From positions 1 to 25,381 of the IMG/VR virus record IMGVR_UViG_3300017940_000558: 25,381 nt of DNA, one strand, 5' to 3'. Source of the stretch: a virus. The translations under genes and the position numbers were made by a program. The notes under the pieces were generated by a model. It was given only the letters and a program-made list of their open reading frames with translations, ran no database searches and had not been told where the DNA came from. How positions within the stretch are numbered: the stretch's first letter is position 1; the number at the start of each line of letters is the position of its first letter. Of this stretch, positions 5,773 to 22,690 are shown in pieces.

Positions 5773-5777
5773 CCAAC

Positions 5778-5829
5778 GTCGGCGACTCAGGTCGCCGACA
5801 TGCCCGATGGCGGCTTGAGGCCGCCTCGG
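5778..5829 (+). repeat. Paired-hairpin intergenic element, copy A
   Basis: Hairpin 1 pairs GTCGGCGAC (5778-5786) with GTCGCCGAC (5791-5799) across TCAG. Hairpin 2 pairs CCGA plus GGCGGC (5804-5814, one bulged T) with GCCGCC plus TCGG (5820-5829). The Shine-Dalgarno GAAGGAG follows at 5832-5838, and the next ATG is 17 bases after hairpin 2. No T-run follows, so it is not a simple terminator. Confidence 0.8.
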
Positions 5830-5846
5830 TCGAAGGAGAAAAAGGC

Positions 5847-6245
5847 ATGAATACGATCGAATTACGTCAACAGCGGGCGGCAAAGATCGCCGAGGTACGC
5901 ACCCTGGTCGACCTGATCGACCAGGAAGCGCGTGACTTCACACCCGAAGAGCGCAGCAAGTTCGAAGCCCTGATGGGCAAGGACGGCAAGGGCGCCAAGG
6001 GCCCGGACGGTGGCGAGGTCGGGAAACTGGCCAAGACCATCGAGGAACGGGAAGCGCTGGAAGCGCACGAGCACGAGCTGATCGAGATAGCCGGGCGCAA
6101 GCCAGTCAAACCGGACGGGAAGCCCGTGACCCCCAAACAGGATGAAAAGCACATGCAGCGGTCCAAGTTCGAAGAGCTTGGAACCGTCGAAAAGGCGGCT
6201 TTCATCCGGAACGGTGGCGAAGTCGTCGAAGATCCGGCTGCCTAA
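5847..6245 (+). CDS. Probable scaffold / delta-domain-like head protein
   Basis: The product has 132 residues. The start at 5847 is chosen because GAAGGAG precedes it by 8 bases. The first 45 residues (ELRQQRAAKIAEVRTLVDL, then QEARDFTPEERSKFEALM) resemble the coiled N-terminal delta domain that acts as an internal scaffold in HK97-type coat proteins. Here it is a separate gene between the protease and the coat gene. The rest is charged and largely helical or disordered (KLAKTIEEREALEAHEHEL, then KPVKPDGKPVTPK). The role is inferred from position and from the delta-like start. The protease next door would be expected to cleave it. A separate scaffolding protein suits the P22-like coat protein that follows. 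Confidence 0.62.
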   Translation: MNTIELRQQRAAKIAEVRTLVDLIDQEARDFTPEERSKFEALMGKDGKGAKGPDGGEVGKLAKTIEEREALEAHEHELIEIAGRKPVKPDGKPVTPKQDEKHMQRSKFEELGTVEKAAFIRNGGEVVEDPAA

Positions 6246-6304
6246 GCTGGAGCGACTGCATAAGCCTGACAGATCAAATAAGAATATCTATTGGAGAGTG
6301 AAAA

Positions 6305-7453
6305 ATGGCAAACACATTTAATGGGCTATACCCCACCATCTACGCCGCCCTGGACCAGATCACCCGTGAGCTGGTCGGGTACATCCCGGCGGTATCCCGC
6401 AACGCGAAGACCGATCAAGCGGCCCTGGGCGAAACGATCAGCTGGCCGGTCGTCGGGCAAGGCGCGGTCGGGACCCTGACTCCGGCTGCCTATGGTCCTT
6501 CGCCGTCCGACATGACTGTCGCCGCTCCGACCATGACCCTCAGCCACATGCGCGATTACCCGTTCTATCTGACGGGCGAAGAGCTGCTCGGCCTAAAGAA
6601 CGGTGGGAACGATCAAACGATCGTCCAGAACCAGTTCTACCAGGCCTTCCGCTCGCTAGTTAACGAAATCGAAGCGGCGCTGGTCGTCGCCGCCTACCAG
6701 GGAGCCTCGCGTGCCTACGGCACGGCGGGAACCCTGCCCTTCGCAACCGTTGGTGACTTCACCGACGTGGCCCAGACCCGCAAGATCCTGGCGGATAACG
6801 GCGCTCCGATGAGCGATATGCACCTGGTGCTCAGCACGGCTGCCGCAGCGAAACTGCGCGGCACGCAGTCGCTGCTCCTGAAGGTCAACGAATCCGGCAC
6901 GGATGCAATGCTGCGCCAGGGCGCCCTTGGGCAGGTGGAAGGCTTCAGCCTGCACGAGTCCGGCCAGGTGACAGCGATCACGAAAGGAACGGGAACGTCC
7001 TACGTGACCAACGGCTCGACCGCCCCGGGCGTGGCAGCGATCGTGCTGCAGACCGGTTCCGGTACCGTGCTGGCCGGCGACGTGGTGACCTTCGCCGCCG
7101 ATGCGGTCAACAAGTACGTGGTCAATGTGGGCGTGGCCGCCCCCGGCACAATCACCCTTGGACTGCCCGGTGCGCTGGTTACGATCGCCACCTCGAACGC
7201 CATGACGATCGGCAACAACTTCACCCCGCTGTGCGCGTTTGACCGGAACGCCTTGCTGCTGGCTGCACGCACGCCGGCCATGCCGCCCATGGGCGACGCG
7301 GCCGACGACGTGATCGTGGTCCAAGACCCGCTCTCCAATCTGGCCTTCCAGATCGCCATGTACAAGCAGTACCGCCGGGTCGCCTATGACGTGGCGATCC
7401 TGTGGGGCGTCGCGGCAGTCAAGCAGAACAATATCGCCATTCTGCTCAGCTAG
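6305..7453 (+). CDS. Major capsid protein, P22 coat-like (HK97 fold)
   Basis: This is the main shell protein, 382 residues. It follows GGAGAG at 6293-6298. The beginning (TFNGLYPTIYAALDQITREL), the early strand ETISWPVVGQG and the long helix around FYQAFRSLVNEIEAALVVAA are typical of P22 gp5-type coat proteins. A beta-rich block at about 225-305 fits the inserted I-domain seen in that family, after which the fold resumes at CAFDRNALLLAARTP (310-324). The end (QYRRVAYDVAILWGVAAVKQNN) is the conserved final strand and loop. It lacks the long N-terminal delta region, which agrees with the separate scaffold-like gene upstream. HK97-type portal and protease genes with a P22-type coat make this a mosaic head module. 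Confidence 0.85.
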   Translation: MANTFNGLYPTIYAALDQITRELVGYIPAVSRNAKTDQAALGETISWPVVGQGAVGTLTPAAYGPSPSDMTVAAPTMTLSHMRDYPFYLTGEELLGLKNGGNDQTIVQNQFYQAFRSLVNEIEAALVVAAYQGASRAYGTAGTLPFATVGDFTDVAQTRKILADNGAPMSDMHLVLSTAAAAKLRGTQSLLLKVNESGTDAMLRQGALGQVEGFSLHESGQVTAITKGTGTSYVTNGSTAPGVAAIVLQTGSGTVLAGDVVTFAADAVNKYVVNVGVAAPGTITLGLPGALVTIATSNAMTIGNNFTPLCAFDRNALLLAARTPAMPPMGDAADDVIVVQDPLSNLAFQIAMYKQYRRVAYDVAILWGVAAVKQNNIAILLS

Positions 7454-7476
7454 TGATCAGTGATTAGTGATCAGTA
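7452..7476. repeat. Tandem heptamer repeat overlapping the coat gene stop
   Basis: Three and a half copies of a 7-base unit (AGTGATC, AGTGATT, AGTGATC, AGTA) begin inside the stop codon of the coat gene. Such units can form alternative short hairpins because GTGATCA is close to self-complementary. This lies in an otherwise featureless 96-base gap. Confidence 0.6.
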
Positions 7477-7500
7477 AGCAGGAAAGAACCTCACCCCTTA

Positions 7501-7529
7501 CCCCTCTCCTGAGCAAAACTCAGGAGAGG
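7501..7529. repeat. Perfect inverted repeat after the coat gene
   Basis: CCTCTCCTGAG pairs perfectly with CTCAGGAGAGG across a short CAAAA loop. The sequence before it (CCTCACCCCTTACC) is of a kind commonly met in dispersed REP-like elements. The hairpin is followed by an A-run and not a T-run on the plus strand. It could therefore modulate the amount of coat message left intact, but it is not a classic terminator in either direction. Confidence 0.6.
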
Positions 7530-7549
7530 GAAAAAAGAAAGAAGGAAGT

Positions 7550-7951
7550 ATGACAACCAAAGCAGGGTTTTTCGAGATGGTCAATCCGGAGGACCCGGAG
7601 GAAGTGATCGAAGTGCACCCGGCGACAGTGGATGCGCACCGGCAAGCGGGCTGGAAGCTGCTGCACCCGGAAGACCTGGTGAAGATGGCCCAGGCAGGGG
7701 TGATGCAGTTGAAGGCCGAGGGGAAACCCGTAAAGGCCGAGCTGGTCAAGATGTTCAAGGATGGCGAGCAGCTCCTGGTCCATCCGGACACGGTCGCTGC
7801 GCACATCAAGGCCCATTGGACGGTGATCGACCAGGGCTATCTCAAGCAAGCCGTGGAGACGGCCGAGAAGATCGTCAAGGCCGAGACGGCGCCGAAGCGG
7901 ACGGTACGGAAACCGGCCGCAGTGGCCGCGCCAGCGCCGAAGAAAGACTGA
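7550..7951 (+). CDS. Small structural protein with a duplicated VHPxxVxAHxxxxW motif
   Basis: The product has 133 residues and belongs to no family I can name. It carries two copies of the same motif, VHPATVDAHRQAGW (22-35) and VHPDTVAAHIKAHW (77-90). The protein of the next gene starts with a third version, VNPGNVAAHALLGW (15-28). The C-terminus is Lys/Ala/Pro-rich and probably disordered. A strong GAAGGAAG site precedes the ATG. The position directly after the coat gene fits a head decoration or accessory head protein. The shared motif suggests that the two neighbours bind the same partner or arose by duplication; both ideas are inference. Confidence 0.6.
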   Translation: MTTKAGFFEMVNPEDPEEVIEVHPATVDAHRQAGWKLLHPEDLVKMAQAGVMQLKAEGKPVKAELVKMFKDGEQLLVHPDTVAAHIKAHWTVIDQGYLKQAVETAEKIVKAETAPKRTVRKPAAVAAPAPKKD

Positions 7952-7956
7952 TCGTC

Positions 7957-8023
7957 GGCCGGCTTGTCCCCTGATGGGGATGCTACGCGAACGCCGGCTC
8001 GGGCGACGCCTCGAGGAGCGCCC
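7957..8023 (+). repeat. Multi-arm palindromic intergenic element related to the hairpin family
   Basis: GCCGGC (7958-7963) pairs with GCCGGC (7993-7998), enclosing a TCCCC/GGGGA hairpin (7967-7980). A second arm pairs GGGCG (8001-8005) with CGCCC (8019-8023) around the palindrome CCTCGAGG (8009-8016). It shares the 13-base string GCCGGCTCGGGCG with copy E at 13021-13033, which links it to the paired-hairpin family. Confidence 0.6.
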
Positions 8024-8061
8024 CTACGGGATCCACCAGGAAGACAAAGGAACGGTAAATT

Positions 8062-9132
8062 ATGGCAAAGACGAGACTAACCAAGAACGGTGTGACCATC
8101 TACGTGAACCCGGGCAATGTGGCTGCCCACGCTTTACTGGGCTGGATGCCCAACCCCGTGGCCTTGATCACCGCAGGAGCGCTGACGCTGGATGGCGCGC
8201 TGGTGACGGTGCCGGCAGCGCGGCTGAACGAGCTGGATCTGCCGCCCAGCGCGGTGGGAATACTGGAGAATTTGCACCTGCGGCACTACCAGATTGCCCC
8301 GGTGGTGGCCAGCGCGACGGCGGTGCATGCGGCCGCCAACCTGAACGTGGCCACGCAGAAGATCCTGAGCGGATTCAGCGCCCCGGACGTGCCGCGCGTG
8401 GCATCGGTCAAAGGCAGCGTGTCGGGCATTGCCGGCAACGTGACGGTGATCGGGACCAACATCCAGGACGAGCTGATCAGCGACACGATCGCCTTATCGG
8501 GAGCCAGCGCGGTGGCCGGCGTCAAGGCTTTCAAAACCGTGGTGGAGGTCGACGTTCCGGTGGAAACGCACGCACACACCGCCCAGGTGAACACCGCCAC
8601 GGTAGTGGGATCGGTGACCCTCACCGGTAACGCGACTGTGATCGTGACGGCAGCCGGGATGAGTGGCAGCCCGAAGACAATCAACGTAGCAGTGACCAAC
8701 GGCGATTCGGCTACGGTGGTGGCCGGCAAGATCATAACGGCGCTGGCAGCCGATACGTCGGTAAACGCCATGTTCTCGGTCGGGGGAGCGGGCGCCAACG
8801 TGGTACTGACTGCCCTGGTCGCGGCTGCGAACGACGCCACGCTCAACATCAGCACGGCCAACGGCACGTGCACCGGCCTGACATCAGAACCCACTTCGAC
8901 CAACACCACGCCGGGCGTGGCGTACGACACGGTCAGCGTGGGCGTGGCCACCCTGGTGGGCCTGCCGCACATCGTGAGCTATCCGGCGGCGCTGCTGCTG
9001 GCGCTGTTCAACGGGACGGCCGACTCGGGCGGAAGCCTGGCAGTGGATGGGACCTACATCGAGAAAAATCTGTACACGCCGGCAGGCACCTATAACGGCA
9101 CCAAGCTGCTGGACCTGTATTACATGGCATGA
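8062..9132 (+). CDS. Beta-rich phage structural protein (head fibre or decoration-like)
   Basis: The product has 356 residues. It opens with the VNPGNVAAHALLGW motif shared with the preceding protein. Residues about 95-165 form a beta domain with PRVASVKGSVSGIAGNVTVI and VAGVKAFKTVVEV, a pattern I associate with phage structural proteins. Residues about 172-285 form a second, Ala/Thr/Val-rich domain with INVAVTNGDSATVVAGKII, of the type inserted in tail sheath and other virion proteins. The last part returns to the base fold (VDGTYIEKNLYTPAGTYNGT). The position between the coat gene and the connector gene suggests a head surface or fibre protein. The exact role is not certain, and a GGAACGG site precedes the start. 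Confidence 0.65.
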   Translation: MAKTRLTKNGVTIYVNPGNVAAHALLGWMPNPVALITAGALTLDGALVTVPAARLNELDLPPSAVGILENLHLRHYQIAPVVASATAVHAAANLNVATQKILSGFSAPDVPRVASVKGSVSGIAGNVTVIGTNIQDELISDTIALSGASAVAGVKAFKTVVEVDVPVETHAHTAQVNTATVVGSVTLTGNATVIVTAAGMSGSPKTINVAVTNGDSATVVAGKIITALAADTSVNAMFSVGGAGANVVLTALVAAANDATLNISTANGTCTGLTSEPTSTNTTPGVAYDTVSVGVATLVGLPHIVSYPAALLLALFNGTADSGGSLAVDGTYIEKNLYTPAGTYNGTKLLDLYYMA

Positions 9133-9341
9133 CGGATTACGCCTTTCCCTTCCTTAAGGCGTGCCGACGGGAGCGGTCAGACATTGATAAGAGCGACACA
9201 ATTTGCCCTGAGCATGGATCGCCGCCGCTCCTGTTTCTAACGCAACGACAGGGCGCGCACCGTGCGCCCGGCGCCTCATGGCGCCTAACGTCCGATGGCG
9301 GCTCGAAGCCGCCTCGGCCAGCCCTACGGTAAGGAAAACGA
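9133..9341 (+). repeat. Intergenic region packed with hairpins, including element copy B
   Basis: No convincing gene is present in these 209 bases. Three hairpins lie in a row: GGGCGC/GCGCCC (9251-9269), GGCGCC-TCAT-GGCGCC (9270-9285), and the family hairpin CCGA plus GGCGGCT (9292-9303) with AGCCGCC plus TCGG (9307-9317). The last has a CGA loop and one bulged T and ends 24 bases before the next ATG. A distant GGAGCGG/CCGCTCC pairing could close a larger arm upstream. Confidence 0.65.
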
Positions 9342-10367
9342 ATGGATAGACTGTACTGCACGTTTGCTGACATGGTGGCGGACTTGAGCCCAACGACGGG
9401 CGGGGACGAGGCGGCCTGGATGGGGCACATCCGGGAGGCCTCGAGGCTGATCGAAGAGGCTTTCCACGCGCCGTTCATCCCGTATGCCGAGATCAAGCAT
9501 TTCGACGGGAGCGGCGAGCGCATGCTGAAGCTGACCACGCCGCTGCTGGAGATCACCGGGACGATCATGAACTGGACGACCGCACTGACCTCGGCGGATT
9601 ACCTGCCAACGCCGTGCGACCGGATGTGGCCGAACGGACCCTACACCTGCTTCGAGACGGCGCCGCTGGCGCCGCACATGGCGGTGTGGCTGGAGTTCAA
9701 GGACGGGGTGGTGGTGCCGGGGCTGTGGGGGCTGTCGGAGGAGATTATCGACACGGGGGTCACGGTCCAAAACACCACCAAGCAGGCCGCGGCAGATAAA
9801 ACCCTACTGGTGGCAGACGGTTCGAAGCTCAGCGCGGGGATGGTGCTGTTCCTGGACAGTTTGGAGCAGGAGCTGATCACTGCCACCGGCGCACCCACGG
9901 CGGGAGTCACGACGCTGAGCCAGGCGATGGGTGTGGCGGACGATGTGTTGACACCGGCAAACGTGGCAGCGGCAAACGTGGGAGAGATGATCAGGGTGGA
10001 TTTCGAGAAAATGAAGATCGTGGATATCAACACGACGCAGTGGAGCGTGTACCGGAACTGGAACAAGACCAAGGCTGCCGCGCACCTGGCCGCAGCGAAC
10101 GTGGACGTGTACCGCACTTTTACGGTGAGCCGGGGCGTGAACGGCACCACGCCAGCCGACCACCTGAACGGAGTGGAGATCTTCCGCTACGTGCCACCGG
10201 CGGATATCGGGTTGCTGGCCAAGGCTTGTGCGGCGCTGGCCAAGAAACTGGCGGACAGCCAGTACGCCGGGCGGACCGGCGACGCACAGTTGGGCCAGGT
10301 CTTTTACAACGACGTGGTCAATAAGGCGCAGCTGGAGCAGGCGCAGGAGAATTACCAGTGGAAATAG
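9342..10367 (+). CDS. Head-tail connector (adaptor) protein with an inserted beta domain
   Basis: The product has 341 residues. The N-terminal helices (DEAAWMGHIREASRLIEEAF) and the C-terminal part (FTVSRGVNGTTPADHLNG at 260-277, then IFRYVPPADIGLLAKACAAL at 280-299) match what I know of the adaptor proteins that bind the portal ring and receive the tail. Connector proteins of the HK97 gp6 type are often near 100-200 residues. The extra length here comes from a beta-rich segment at about 138-230 (TVQNTTKQAAADKTLLVADG, then AGMVLFLDSLEQELITATG). The gene lies between the head proteins and the gp10-like gene, the standard place for a connector. A TAAGGAA site precedes the ATG. Confidence 0.7.
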   Translation: MDRLYCTFADMVADLSPTTGGDEAAWMGHIREASRLIEEAFHAPFIPYAEIKHFDGSGERMLKLTTPLLEITGTIMNWTTALTSADYLPTPCDRMWPNGPYTCFETAPLAPHMAVWLEFKDGVVVPGLWGLSEEIIDTGVTVQNTTKQAAADKTLLVADGSKLSAGMVLFLDSLEQELITATGAPTAGVTTLSQAMGVADDVLTPANVAAANVGEMIRVDFEKMKIVDINTTQWSVYRNWNKTKAAAHLAAANVDVYRTFTVSRGVNGTTPADHLNGVEIFRYVPPADIGLLAKACAALAKKLADSQYAGRTGDAQLGQVFYNDVVNKAQLEQAQENYQWK

Positions 10368-10373
10368 GAATCC

Positions 10374-10916
10374 ATGAGCGATAAGGAAGTTGTTTTATCA
10401 GACGACCTGCAGACCCAGATCCAGAAGCTGGAGGGGATGGACGACCTGCTGCAGCAGCACATGCGGCCGGCGATGACGCAGTCGGTCAGCCTGCTATCGG
10501 ATGCAGTCGAGCCGAACATCCCAACATTGACAGGCACGGCGCGGGCGTACTTCGGCACGCACGTGCTGGGGAGCGGAATCAACCTGACCGGCTACGTGGG
10601 CTGGAAGGGCAAGCCAACGGCTTTCTGGATGAACTTTGTCGAATATGGGGCCAGGCCACATGACCTGACGCCCAAATCCACCATTCGTAACGCACGCGGA
10701 GCAGCCATGTTCCGGTACATGCAGGAGAACGGATTTACGCCGACCGGCGTACACGTGGGAGTGAATGGGCAGTGGAAGACCATGCACACGCATCCGGGCT
10801 TCGCCGGGAGATTCCTGCTTTCGAATGCCTTCGACAGCAACGAGGAGGCGGTAGAGAGCATCTTCAGCCAGGCAGCGGACGACGTGCTTGGGGATCTGGC
10901 GGTCAACAATGCTTGA
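10374..10916 (+). CDS. HK97 gp10-like tail completion / neck protein
   Basis: The product has 180 residues. The family signature is clear: TLTGTARAYF (51-60) in the region where a newly made chain meets its target, VGWKGKPTAFWMNFVEYGARPH (split over 75-96) and HTHPGFAGRFLLSNAF near the end. In HK97 this protein helps join head and tail. The gene begins six bases after the connector stop and overlaps the next gene by eight bases. A short AGGA site precedes the ATG. The order adaptor, gp10-like, tail terminator is standard, which supports the call. Confidence 0.78.
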   Translation: MSDKEVVLSDDLQTQIQKLEGMDDLLQQHMRPAMTQSVSLLSDAVEPNIPTLTGTARAYFGTHVLGSGINLTGYVGWKGKPTAFWMNFVEYGARPHDLTPKSTIRNARGAAMFRYMQENGFTPTGVHVGVNGQWKTMHTHPGFAGRFLLSNAFDSNEEAVESIFSQAADDVLGDLAVNNA

Positions 10917-11364
10917 GAACTGGATCGACCTGGTGTGCAAGGCTTTCGGGACGCTGAACACGGACGGTAACAACCAGCTGACCAGCTACCGCACCTTCGA
11001 GAAAGGCGAGATCCCGTCTGCATTGAGCGTCTATCCGTGCGCGATCACCTACGTGCCAGAGATGGAGCCGATCTACGTTGCCGGAGCGATCGGATCCCTG
11101 CTATGGTCCGGTACGACCGAGATACACATTACCCCGACCGTCGACCCGGCGCTGCTGCCAGGCGTGGAAAAATTCTACACCCGGGTGCTGCAGATGATGA
11201 CTGCCAACCGCAGCCTGGGCGGCAAGGTGCAGTATTTTGAGCTACCGGAAAATACGAAGGCGATGCACATTTCGCCGGTAACGTTAGGACAAGGACCGCT
11301 GCATTATGCAATGCTGGTCACCTGGGAAGTTCTGGAGAATGTCTCGCTCCCGCTGAGCGGATAA
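10909..11364 (+). CDS. Probable tail terminator / minor tail protein
   Basis: The product has 151 residues from the ATG at 10909, which overlaps the end of the previous gene by eight bases; a TTG 21 bases earlier is less likely. No specific motif is recognised. The role is inferred from the size, the position directly after the gp10-like gene and before the tail tube, and the mixed alpha/beta pattern (WIDLVCKAFGTLN, ALSVYPCAITYVPEM, HYAMLVTWEVLENVSLPLSG). In siphophages this slot holds the protein that caps the tail tube at the head end. An unrelated minor tail protein remains possible. Confidence 0.55.
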   Translation: MLENWIDLVCKAFGTLNTDGNNQLTSYRTFEKGEIPSALSVYPCAITYVPEMEPIYVAGAIGSLLWSGTTEIHITPTVDPALLPGVEKFYTRVLQMMTANRSLGGKVQYFELPENTKAMHISPVTLGQGPLHYAMLVTWEVLENVSLPLSG

Positions 11365-11370
11365 GCATCG

Positions 11371-11444
11371 GCGACTCATGTCGCGGATACGCCCGATCCC
11401 GCAAAGAGCGCGGGACAAGTTGGCAGCTTGAAGCTGCCTCGGGC
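11371..11444 (+). repeat. Paired-hairpin intergenic element, copy C (with an extra hairpin inserted)
   Basis: Hairpin 1 is shortened to GCGAC/GTCGC (11371-11384). The outer stem GCCCGA (11391-11396) pairs with TCGGGC (11439-11444). It encloses an added hairpin (TCCCGC with GCGGGA, about 11397-11414) and GGCAGCTT (11422-11429) with AAGCTGCC (11431-11438). The inner stem differs from other copies by paired changes that keep complementarity. AGAAGGAG follows, and the next ATG is 14 bases after the element. Confidence 0.75.
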
Positions 11445-11458
11445 AGAAGGAGAAAAAC

Positions 11459-11680
11459 ATGTTGAGCTATATCGGTGATGGAAGTGCGATCGTGGGGATC
11501 CCGGCGCGGGATCTGAGTGACGAGGAAGTGGAGGCGGCCGGCGGCGAGCAGCTGCTGCTGGCCAGCGGGTTGTATGCCAAACCGGTCAAGGCCGGGAAGA
11601 AAGTTGCATCGGCGACACAGGTTGCCGATGTAGCAGATGCTTCGGCGACTCATGTCGCCGAAGTGTCCGGTGGCGGCTAG
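11459..11680 (+). CDS. Small phage protein with a repeat-derived C-terminus
   Basis: The product has 73 residues. The first 42 residues (YIGDGSAIVGIPARDLSDEE and then LLLASGLYAKP) resemble a small phage protein of unknown function that I associate with head-tail regions of other siphophages. The remaining 25 or so residues (ASATQVADV, ASATHVAEVSGGG) are encoded by the hairpin repeats of element copy D, and the stop codon itself lies in the second hairpin. The protein therefore probably gained a tail when the element entered its 3' end. A strong AGAAGGAG site lies upstream. The function is unknown. Confidence 0.6.
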   Translation: MLSYIGDGSAIVGIPARDLSDEEVEAAGGEQLLLASGLYAKPVKAGKKVASATQVADVADASATHVAEVSGGG

Positions 11681-11692
11681 AAGCCGCCCCGG
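11607..11692 (+). repeat. Paired-hairpin element, copy D (double hairpin 1, partly coding)
   Basis: There are two copies of hairpin 1: CATCGGCGAC with GTTGCCGATG (11607-11630) and TTCGGCGAC with GTCGCCGAA (11641-11662). Hairpin 2 pairs CCGG plus GGCGGCT (11667-11678) with AGCCGCC plus CCGG (11682-11692), with loop AGA. The outer CCGG/CCGG replaces CCGA/TCGG of other copies, a compensatory change. GAAGGAG follows, and the tail tube ATG is 16 bases downstream. Confidence 0.8.
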
Positions 11693-11708
11693 TCGAAGGA
11701 GATAAGCC

Positions 11709-12971
11709 ATGCCAGTCAACATCAATACCAACTCAGGCTCGAAGGCCATGCGGAAGATCCAGATGGGGCTGGAGGTAACACCGGGGACGATTGTGCCGGC
11801 CACAGCAGTGTGGCGCGGACCGGGTGTCCTGACGGATAACCGCCAGATCGTTTACCCGAAGGAGGATATCGGGATCGGGCCGGGAGCGGACCGGGTGTAC
11901 ATCCCCTTCCTGGGAGCGAGCCTGGCGCTAGCCCCGATCGAGGAGAATTTCGAGCAGGGACCGTACCTGTTCGAGCTGGGTGCCAAGAAAGTAGGGACGG
12001 GCGTGGCGGACGGCGCCGGATCCGGCAAGATCTACACCTACCCGTTCTGGTACAGCCAGGCCAACAAGCCAGTGCAGGCCGGGATCGGGATCCGGACATT
12101 CGAAGCCGGCGACGACATGCACTTCGAGAAGATGGAGTTCGGCTTCGCCGACACGATCACGCTGGACGGCAAGAGCAAGGGCGCCTGGATGATGAGCGCC
12201 AGCCTGCTGGGGCGGCAGGTGACGATCGGGCCGACCTACACGGCCAGCACGATCGCCTTCACCAACACCCATACCATCACCGACTCGGCTAACGGGCTGG
12301 GGGTGTTCCCGACGGGCGTGATCGTCAAAGTGATCGGCTCGAACCTGAACGACGGCATCTACACGGTGACAACGGGTGTAGCTGGAACGCTGACCGTGTC
12401 AGAAACGACCGCGACGGAAATAGCCGGCAACACGATCACGATCACGCAGTTCTTCACCGGCGGTGGGGCCGGACTGGCTTTGCCGGTGGTGGAAGACGTG
12501 CCTTTCGGGGAAAGCAAGCTGTACATCGATGCGATCGGCGGAACGATGGGGGCAACGCAGATGGCAGGGTTGCTGGCAGCCACGCTGACGATCAAGACGG
12601 GCATCGTGGGGCAGGAAACCGCCAACGGGGCGATCACGTTCGACCACCTGGAATTCACGCCGGAAGATATCACGCTCAAGATGACCTTCCTGATGCAGAG
12701 CGGTGCGATCGCCGAGAAGAGGAACTGGCAAACCAAGGTGCCGCGGCTGGTGCGGATCCAGAGCCAGGGCAGCGCGCTGACCACGCCAGGCACGACCTAT
12801 ACCTACAAGACCCGCAACATCGACCTGGCGGGGGTGTGGGACAAGTTCGATGCGATCGGGGATCAGAACGGGGTGGACATCATCGTGGGAACGTTCCATG
12901 CCAAGTACGACGCGACGGCGGCAAAGTATTGTCAGATCCTTTACGTCAATCAAGTTGCGTCGCTTCCTTGA
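11709..12971 (+). CDS. Major tail (tube) protein with an Ig-like inserted domain
   Basis: The product has 420 residues and would polymerise into the tail tube around the tape measure. The opening (KAMRKIQMGLEVTPGTIVPA) and the repeated long strands (TLTIKTGIVGQETANGAITF, HAKYDATAAKYCQILYVNQV) fit siphophage tube proteins. Residues about 180-250 (FTNTHTITDSANGLGVFPTG, VIGSNLNDGIYTVTTGVAGT) form an extra beta sandwich of the kind displayed on tail and head surfaces. The next genes are the assembly chaperones and the tape measure protein, which fixes the identity. An AAGGAG site lies eight or so bases before the ATG, just after hairpin element D. Confidence 0.82.
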   Translation: MPVNINTNSGSKAMRKIQMGLEVTPGTIVPATAVWRGPGVLTDNRQIVYPKEDIGIGPGADRVYIPFLGASLALAPIEENFEQGPYLFELGAKKVGTGVADGAGSGKIYTYPFWYSQANKPVQAGIGIRTFEAGDDMHFEKMEFGFADTITLDGKSKGAWMMSASLLGRQVTIGPTYTASTIAFTNTHTITDSANGLGVFPTGVIVKVIGSNLNDGIYTVTTGVAGTLTVSETTATEIAGNTITITQFFTGGGAGLALPVVEDVPFGESKLYIDAIGGTMGATQMAGLLAATLTIKTGIVGQETANGAITFDHLEFTPEDITLKMTFLMQSGAIAEKRNWQTKVPRLVRIQSQGSALTTPGTTYTYKTRNIDLAGVWDKFDAIGDQNGVDIIVGTFHAKYDATAAKYCQILYVNQVASLP

Positions 12972-12977
12972 GATAAG

Positions 12978-13032
12978 CATCGGCGGCCAAGGCCGCCGAT
13001 GTGCCCGATGGCGGCTCGAAGCCGGCTCGGGC
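12978..13032 (+). repeat. Paired-hairpin intergenic element, copy E
   Basis: Hairpin 1 is an 11-bp perfect stem, CATCGGCGGCC (12978-12988) with GGCCGCCGATG (12991-13001). Compared with copies A and D, an A-T pair is replaced by G-C. Hairpin 2 pairs GCCCGA (13003-13008) with TCGGGC (13027-13032) around an imperfect GGCGGC/GCCGGC stem. AGAAGGA follows, and the ATG is 14 bases after the element. Confidence 0.8.
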
Positions 13033-13046
13033 GAGAAGGATAAATC

Positions 13047-13487
13047 ATGAAGATCGATCTGAATAAGATTTTGGCGGAGAAGATCGTGGAGCCGCTGGAT
13101 TTGGGGGAGTATCACGCACAGTTTGCGGGGCAGGTGATGCAGGTGTGGGTGAACCCGCCGATAGCGGTGCGGCAGCGCTATGCGGCGATCAGGCGGCAGA
13201 TAGAGGGGATTCGGGAGGAGATCAAGGAAGAACTAAAGGCGAAGAAAAAACTGGCAGCCGAGCGATCGCAGGAACGCGAAGCATTATCGGGCCGGCTGCT
13301 TAAAGAGCAGGCGGAGTGGCTGAGCCAGATCTGGAGCCAGGGGCCGGAAGATACGCGCATGACGGCAGAGGAAGTGGAGCGGCTGCGCAGCGAGAGCCAG
13401 GAGACCAACCCGCGCCTGTTTTCCTGGCTGATCAGCCGGACGATCCGCTTGATGGCGGAGCACCTGGGCTTTGTAAAAAACGCATAA
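13047..13487 (+). CDS. Tail assembly chaperone, short form (gpG-like)
   Basis: The product has 146 residues. It follows the tube gene and precedes the tape measure gene, the fixed place for the chaperone that coats the tape measure before tube assembly. Residues about 40-95 are strongly charged and helical (RQIEGIREEIKEELKAKKKL). No catalytic motif is expected. The end of the frame contains an in-frame A AAA AAC just before the TAA stop, so a minority of ribosomes should continue into the extended form. The start follows AGAAGGA. Confidence 0.75.
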   Translation: MKIDLNKILAEKIVEPLDLGEYHAQFAGQVMQVWVNPPIAVRQRYAAIRRQIEGIREEIKEELKAKKKLAAERSQEREALSGRLLKEQAEWLSQIWSQGPEDTRMTAEEVERLRSESQETNPRLFSWLISRTIRLMAEHLGFVKNA

Positions 13488-21005: not shown

Positions 21006-22067
21006 TTAAGCGGCAGCCGGCCGGAGCTGCTTGATCAGCTCGAGCAGCTGGTCGAGCTTGGCGGCGGTGGAATCGATGGCGGCGGGGGTGTTCAAGCTGC
21101 CGATAATGCGGCGGACGTCGTCGTCGACCAGGCGGCCGTAGATGCTATCCGTGATAGTGAGGGAGGAGTGCATGACGTTCTGACTGACGGCTTTCCAGTC
21201 GGCCATGTTGCGGGCACGCTTGAGGGCGTAGAGCACGTGGCCGTGGCGAAGTTTGTGTGGGGAGAGATAGGGCACGCCGGCCAGGGCACAGACCGGGCGC
21301 AGGTCGCGCTCGACCAGATCGCCGCGGCCGAGATGCGGATCGGAAGTAGCGGTGATGGTGGTGCTGTCACGGGTGAGGGTGGCGTACCAGAGCGAGTCAG
21401 GCGGAAGCAGGCGGACGCGCCGGTCCCATTTTTCTACGATCGTAAGCAGTTCGGGGATCTCGAGCAGGAAGGTGACGGCGGCTTTGCGGTTCTTGGTACG
21501 GACGCCCAGCTCAGGCAACTGGCGGATCTCCCGGCGGGCGATATCGACGCAGGAGACCGGCAGGGTGGCGAGGGCATCCGCGCGCATGCCGGACAGGAAG
21601 AGCATGCAGGCGGCGACCTGGCCGCGCTCCTGGCGAAGCGTTTCCGTGGGCACATGGGCGATCTTGAGCACGTCTTCGACAGTGTAGGCTTTGTGCTCGA
21701 CCAGGTGCGACTCGAGCCGGGAGCCGCGCGGCGGTTGGAGCTGCTCGACCCAGATAGGCCGGATGGCGTGGTAACGCTGCGGCCACTGGTCCCGGGCCCA
21801 GGTGAAAAAGGCCCGGCAGGCTTCGAGACCTTTCTTGATCGAACTGGGGGAGAGCTTACCCTTGCCATCGAGGCGGGCGGTCAGGATGTAGGTCGGCAGG
21901 CCGGGGCTGATCTGGCGGGATCTGGGCAACGGGGTTTCATCCGCCCAGGTGAGCAGGTGGCGCAGGTGGGCACGGTTGCGGGCGACGGTCTCGGGGGAAT
22001 TCTGGCGGACGTCGCTGCAGTAGCGGATGTATGCACGCACGTCTAGGTAGTTCTGTCTGTTGATCAT
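21006..22067 (-). CDS. int: Tyrosine recombinase (phage integrase)
   Basis: The enzyme recombines the phage and bacterial attachment sites. The 353-residue protein has an N-terminal SAM-like domain (about 1-110) and a catalytic domain with the expected residues: Arg162 in SGMRADALATL, Lys192 or Lys195 in RTKNRKAAV, His271 and Arg274 in SPHKLRHGHVLYAL, His300 in VMHSS and the nucleophile Tyr310 in SIYGRL. All catalytic positions appear intact, so it should be active. A helical tail at 330-350 follows. It overlaps the upstream DNA-binding gene by four bases (ATGA) and so is translated with it. It lies beside tRNA-Pro, the expected target. Confidence 0.92.
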   Translation of the reverse strand: MINRQNYLDVRAYIRYCSDVRQNSPETVARNRAHLRHLLTWADETPLPRSRQISPGLPTYILTARLDGKGKLSPSSIKKGLEACRAFFTWARDQWPQRYHAIRPIWVEQLQPPRGSRLESHLVEHKAYTVEDVLKIAHVPTETLRQERGQVAACMLFLSGMRADALATLPVSCVDIARREIRQLPELGVRTKNRKAAVTFLLEIPELLTIVEKWDRRVRLLPPDSLWYATLTRDSTTITATSDPHLGRGDLVERDLRPVCALAGVPYLSPHKLRHGHVLYALKRARNMADWKAVSQNVMHSSLTITDSIYGRLVDDDVRRIIGSLNTPAAIDSTAAKLDQLLELIKQLRPAAA

Positions 22068-22558: not shown

Positions 22559-22615
22559 ATCTCGCCTGATAGGATGTGCCCAATTCCACCTCCCAGTAAG
22601 AAAAGGGCAAAAATG

Positions 22616-22645
22616 TCGGGGCGGGCGGATTTGGACCGCCGACCT
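22616..22645. other. Probable phage attachment site at the tRNA-Pro 3' end
   Basis: Tyrosine integrases commonly use the 3' part of a tRNA gene as attB, and here the integrase operon starts 120 bases from the tRNA 3' end. The core should be within the T-arm and acceptor stem. The second att copy lies outside this window, so the exact core and crossover cannot be read. Confidence 0.45.
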
Positions 22646-22690
22646 CTGCGTCCCGAACGCAGCGCTCTAGCCGGACTGAGCCACGCCCCG
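22616..22690 (-). tRNA. tRNA-Pro (anticodon CGG)
   Basis: A complete cloverleaf of 75 bases is seen on the minus strand. The acceptor stem CGGGGCG pairs with CGCCCCG. The D-arm is GCTC/GAGC. The anticodon stem CTGCG/CGCAG holds the loop TTCGGGA with anticodon CGG. The variable region is AGGTC. The T-arm GGCGG/CCGCC has loop TCCAAAT. The discriminator is A, and no CCA is encoded. A promoter lies directly upstream. The integrase operon follows in the same direction without a visible terminator, so tRNA transcription could run into it. Confidence 0.93.

Follow-up and report, generated by a model that had tools for sequence, protein, structure and literature searches.

The window analysed here, virus record IMGVR_UViG_3300017940_000558, spans 25,381 bases and has terminase, portal, prohead protease, coat and tape measure genes, and five of its intergenic gaps carry a double-hairpin element, which is the subject of this work. 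Genes were delimited with our own codon-usage gene caller, giving coordinates near-identical to those in the list of open reading frames (ORFs). An integrase gene on the minus strand (21006-22067) is followed by tRNA-Pro (22615-22690) and, 3' of the latter, by a GyrA gene, named from its own sequence; from this succession the window is read as the end of a prophage within a host chromosome. The closest nucleotide match to the window GyrA gene, at 79% identity in a comparison of 396 genomes of the class, is genome G001, a metagenome-assembled genome (MAG) titled uncultured Anaerolineales bacterium.

The element is about 57 nt long (consensus cTTCGGCGaCTCATGtCGCCGAAaCAGCCGATGGCGGCTTGANGCCGCCTCGGCTAG) and consists of hairpin 1, with nine pairs and a four-base loop, a linker, and hairpin 2, in which a bulged T separates the outer stem from the inner stem. 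To score copies we used R1, a covariance model built from 27 elements, two of them from the window. A sequence-only reading of this DNA had described five gaps of two-hairpin design, with four paired changes among the copies and given distances to the downstream ATG; all of this was reproduced, with every copy on the plus strand and R1 scores of 58-72 bits for copies A, B, D and E and 34.7 bits for copy C. Copy A (5777-5833, 72.4 bits) comprises hairpin 1 at 5778-5799, the linker and hairpin 2 at 5804-5829, with AAGGAG directly 3' at 5833-5838 and ATG at 5847. Copy B (9266-9321, 65.5 bits, ATG at 9342) has hairpin 2 (9292-9317) in common with the others, while its hairpin 1 is shortened and different (GGCGCC/GGCGCC), three outer pairs being gone. 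Copy C (11366-11446), followed by GAAGGAG and ATG at 11459, has a mismatch in hairpin 1, GGCAGC/GCTGCC in hairpin 2, and an additional GC-rich hairpin inserted at the bulge; this third hairpin accounts for the low score, and with the filters switched off R1 returns 23.5 bits and a separate hairpin-2 match. Copy D (11640-11696, 70.2 bits) precedes AAGGAG and ATG at 11709, and copy E (12978-13034, 57.9 bits), with a single broken pair in hairpin 2, precedes GAAGGA and ATG at 13047.

Neighbouring gaps had been regarded as plain, but two of them are not: the gap at 7952-8061 holds a degenerate sixth copy and that at 7454-7549 a hairpin of different sequence. The sixth copy (7958-8004, plus strand), which we infer from its anatomy to be a degenerate form of the repeat, is devoid of hairpin 1 and retains hairpin 2 (GCCGGC/GCCGGC, tail TCGGGC) with a nested GGGGATGCTACGCGA insert in the loop, and the same insert occurs in host copies. 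A second hairpin 1 is located 5' of copy D (11607-11630, plus strand, direct repeat D1), recognised by fold and scoring 15.4 bits with R1. It lies within a small ORF of 73 amino acids (11459-11680, plus strand, translation MLSYIGDG...SATHVAEVSGGG), the C-terminus of which is encoded by hairpin 1 and half of hairpin 2 of copy D, with the TAG stop falling in the loop of hairpin 2. In the same tail region of related phages, the frame of contig L014 also crosses an element, and the frames of L084 and L172 end without one. No Rfam family covers the double-hairpin element. Between g8062 and g9342 lies a conserved structured stretch (9154-9266; GACGGGAGCGGTC...GATAAGAGCGA...CCGCTCCTGTT) that L084 and L172 share, its stem showing a paired C-G to T-A change; the stretch aligns to the Rfam DUF1874 RNA (RF02953) with 27.1 of 42 bits, below the gathering score.

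The pairing of the double hairpin is real. In 27 elements from public collections that were picked by hairpin 2 alone, a set therefore unbiased for hairpin 1, six of the nine hairpin-1 pairs vary on both sides. Across the whole structure, 42 cells are changed on both sides against 12.1 in shuffles, and none of 500 shuffles reached as high. Hairpin 2, assessed in elements picked by hairpin 1 alone, has 484 paired cells out of 680, against a mean of 372 and a maximum of 415 in shuffles, and among 95 distinct host copies 21 of 21 pairs are altered on both sides, in an alignment fitted to the model. The paired changes are accordingly significant, contrary to the outcome that the sequence-only reading had named as grounds for its rejection.

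The element is not confined to phages. Among 84,980 species genomes, the exact hairpin-2 pattern was recovered in 18 stretches, all from Chloroflexi/Anaerolineae MAGs (Chloroflexota). With up to three mismatches, 18 plus-strand and 20 minus-strand copies were found in G001 (38 altogether), four and three in G003, four and three in G004, three and four in G006, and one each in G002 and G005; the reversed control gave no match in the window or in any of these six genomes. R1 at E <= 0.1 recovered at least 113 copies in G001, 29 in G006, 25 in G003, 16 in G004, five in G005 and one in G002, 150 candidates per genome being scored and a few weak rows representing the reverse strand of a copy itself. 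Our gene caller places 94 of 98 host copies in intergenic DNA, as a rule a hundred or more bases away from genes; in gaps between tandem genes 16 are sense and 22 antisense (p 0.42), indicating no bias for gene direction. The spread is patchy: under stricter filters seven of 151 genomes of the order are positive, most of them with low copy number, and the scan found no copies in G085 and G515, the genomes with the next-closest GyrA. Short, palindromic, numerous and mostly intergenic, the element displays in these hosts the traits of a repetitive extragenic palindromic (REP) sequence. Of the four roles initially considered, an origin in a host REP family is the one supported, by dozens to over a hundred copies on both chromosome strands. 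Occurrence at random positions and in either orientation relative to genes had been put forward as evidence against the proposed design; either orientation is indeed seen, in the hosts and in one phage family with antisense copies.

The host copies do follow the strands of the DNA itself. GC skew was computed with elements masked for each contig piece and multiplied by orientation. The product exceeds zero in 44 of 56 pieces (pooled p 2e-5), to which G001 contributes 29 of 39, G006 11 of 13 and G003 four of four. At fourfold sites, genes codirectional with the copies have the higher G content in 25 of 33 (G001), nine of 10 (G006) and four of four (G003) cases. Host copies are therefore read along the G-rich strand. 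In most bacteria this is the leading strand, identical in sequence to the lagging-strand template.

Scans of IMG/VR revealed the element in several kinds of phages, together with terminase, portal, head or capsid genes. All nine multi-copy phage records that were searched whole hold it in a single orientation, with 15, 8, 7, 5, 4, 3, 3, 2 and 2 matches as tabulated, a few of them partial; the largest has up to 15 copies over 30 kb. The orientation is sense in the majority of multi-copy records. That all phage copies are sense was nevertheless rejected on account of five antisense contigs that have capsid or portal-like genes: L005, L007, L015 and L162, with a PF25209-type capsid, and L163, with a weak portal match. 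These same genes led us to dismiss the idea that the five are host fragments. In the antisense phages it is the sense strand that is rich in C (fourfold skew -0.51 to -0.59), which leaves the element on the G-rich strand and permits the strand effect to be told apart from a gene effect, within the limit that the antisense contigs resemble one family. Overall, 15 of 17 phage contigs have the element oriented with the G-rich strand (p 0.002), and 12 of 17 have it in the sense direction (p 0.14).

Related phages inform on the gain of copies. The colinear relative L172 has a coat protein 71% and a tail protein 90% identical to those of the window, the corresponding values for L084 being 71% and 82%, and neither contig has an R1 match. 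Site C is empty in L084 (GGTAAGGAGAACCATG) and L014 (GATAAAAAAGGAGCAATCATG), whereas in the window the element separates TAAG from GAAGGAG; as both empty sites possess the ribosome site, the latter predates the element. Miniature inverted-repeat transposable elements have terminal inverted repeats and a target-site duplication; the flanks of site C are too diverged to delimit such a duplication. In L014, diverged copies occupy the D and E positions and a site ahead of a duplicated tail gene; they are either old copies that L084 and L172 have lost or independent gains. In the latter region (L014 1907-4543), the tail protein gene equivalent to window 11709-12971 is tandemly duplicated, with the diverged element between the two gene copies. 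Gaps that hold elements in the window contain other hairpin or repeat-like sequences in the relatives (L172 1280-1382, 5650-5725, 5900-6004 and 7250-7350; L084 8400-8520 and 13645-13715). Words from the L172 gaps (ACCACGACGG...) were considered as abundant host repeats, which was not confirmed, with seven near-matches in 12 genomes.

Nested inserts, about 15-29 nt long, also occur in host and phage copies; they occupy loop 1, loop 2 or the bulge, positions that the model-based search may favour. One nested mini-repeat of about 21 nt (TCCCACGGGGATGCTTCGCGA) was observed in loops of either hairpin (host copies such as L225, L187, L234 and L186; window 7967-7990). Nested inserts in unpaired parts and the strand polarity together suggest that folded single strands are inserted, or receive inserts, at replication. 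Aggregated, these data make it likely that the hairpin pairs are copies of a REP-like double-hairpin interspersed repeat common to Anaerolineales-type hosts and several unrelated phages, and the repeat was probably inserted via single-stranded DNA. It would spread as a folded single strand inserting during replication, and phage copies would persist where they are harmless, between a stop codon and a Shine-Dalgarno site. The genes of the window phage lie on the G-rich strand, from which the sense orientation follows, and in a compact gap of a dozen bases the only place for an insert is between the stop and the ribosome site, which makes tight spacing to the ATG the expected outcome. Strand-biased insertion into compact gaps consequently offers the best explanation of the sense orientation and of the adjacency to the ribosome site; selection for ribosome-site spacing through an effect on mRNA is possible, but not needed.

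Several observations weigh against this explanation. The replication direction is deduced from GC skew, and the hosts are fragmented MAGs. In G001 the nearest genes match the copies in local strand coherence; coherence per contig therefore proves little and was discarded as proof of replication polarity, which is why the GC-skew test is relied on. The copies of G145 are on mixed strands, L011 is oriented contrary to its skew, and L148 is negative on a 6-kb piece, the whole contig being weakly positive. Moreover, a word resembling a ribosome site adjoins 20 of 58 phage copies versus five of 98 host copies, which also fits a selected role. As for a mover, no intact Y1 transposase or other candidate was linked to the repeat. 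Y1_Tnp genes are present in all six host genomes, as are long open frames of a receiver plus Y1_Tnp-like kind, but no repeat copy was found within about 1.5 kb of the Y1_Tnp genes in these incomplete MAGs, and a RAYT neighbourhood was on this ground rejected as the source of the repeat. The two Y1_Tnp proteins of G001 (L070 and L074) are long, have a receiver-like front and are without an HUH motif (motif and front read by eye). They and similar loci among L067-L077 are chromosomal and encode proteins of about 530-570 amino acids in which the N-terminus is receiver-like and the C-terminal domain resembles Y1_Tnp.

A phage expression element was the foremost competing explanation: the hairpins would stabilise or process late mRNA between cistrons, expose a clean Shine-Dalgarno site and set the dosage of head and tail genes. 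It gains from the start codon lying 9-16 nt downstream of 20 of 33 sense intergenic phage copies, compared with none of 16 comparable host copies, and from the D- and E-site copies of L014, which retain the double hairpin through many substitutions. On the other hand, host copies are indifferent to gene direction and one phage family has antisense copies, which contradict a phage regulator. That reading is not needed, and the nearest relatives L172 and L084 do without copies at the same genes. With the ribosome site at site C being older than the element as well, we regard this explanation as improbable; a translation or dosage role, as first suggested for the hairpins, is unsupported as the cause of position and orientation, though there may be a secondary effect on mRNA.

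Orientation along the G-rich strand in both hosts and phages would suit a polar DNA marker, similar to Chi or KOPS, where a host protein that reads replication direction binds the repeats and phages keep them for host-like handling. The restricted occurrence in the order, including the absence from the scanned genomes with next-closest GyrA, the few copies in most positive genomes, and a sequence free to vary as long as pairing is retained speak against such a marker, leaving it a slim prospect. Even harder to sustain are recombination linkers, repeats at gene borders that allow phages to exchange modules: copies do lie where head and tail genes adjoin, at borders that differ between neighbouring phages, but L084 and L172 keep the flanking genes colinear, no exchange junction was seen at a copy, and the host copies are away from phage module borders. 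We consider this very unlikely.

How does the REP-like repeat favoured here compare with known systems? REP, BIME and REPIN sequences are mobilised by TnpA_REP (RAYT) and include GTAG- and CGTC-tagged families (PMC3733652, PMC6006769, PMC8266576), GTAG families being reported from Chloroflexi (PMC3733652). They share with our element short GC-rich palindromes, dozens to hundreds per genome, in intergenic positions. In contrast, the unit here is two unlike hairpins in fixed order, and the main foot is CTAG 3' of hairpin 2, not GTAG or CGTC; a CTAC foot (GTAG on the other strand) occurs only after hairpin 1, and only in L011, L018, L026 and L030. Further differences are that no flanking TnpA_REP was located, that orientation is mostly uniform per contig instead of inverted pairs, and that many copies are in phages. 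The REP-type label is right as to behaviour and at most putative as to membership of the Y1-transposase REP class. Y1 enzymes act on single strands, and those of IS608 type use the lagging-strand template (PMC6006769). For IS200/IS605-type elements orientation is tied to replication, to which the orientation along the G-rich strand seen here may correspond.

Fungal mitochondrial double-hairpin elements and yeast GC clusters are likewise small palindromic mobile repeats, the former with two adjacent hairpins held by compensatory change and nested insertion into loops of other copies, both of which our element shows; ours reside in bacterial and phage genomes. In the yeast mitochondrial GC clusters, stems of GC42 are more constrained than loops, and larger clusters arose by merger of smaller ones (PMC4478555). 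The start-associated sequences (SAS) of cluster K mycobacteriophages, with the conserved word GGGATAGGAGCCC, and the ESAS, 17-nt inverted repeats beside them, are described as phage regulatory motifs (PMC12699233). They too place inverted repeats near the start codons of many phage genes. Here, however, location at a start codon holds for A, C, D, E and others, while the repeat is abundant in host chromosomes, where it usually lies hundreds of nt away from genes, and it can be antisense. Rickettsia palindromic elements resemble copy D in being palindromic repeats that are translated within a protein, but only copy D and some phage copies lie within reading frames. A search of open-licence papers found no description of this double-hairpin repeat family. 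A bolder interpretation, that a hairpin-only mobile repeat inserts as folded single-stranded DNA while bacterial and phage genomes replicate, without a Y1 transposase, into the G-rich strand and even the loops of its own copies, and is carried between hosts by phages, is one we advance tentatively and think rather doubtful.

What appeared to be a regulatory motif of a phage is thereby explained as a repeat common to host and phage. The data offer natural material on a long-standing question, the spread of REP-like palindromes. Strand polarity, present in hosts and in phages that have their genes on either strand, helps to split replication-linked insertion from gene-linked selection, and the polarity is testable on any closed genome. 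The phage copies, finally, show a possible route for such repeats between hosts.

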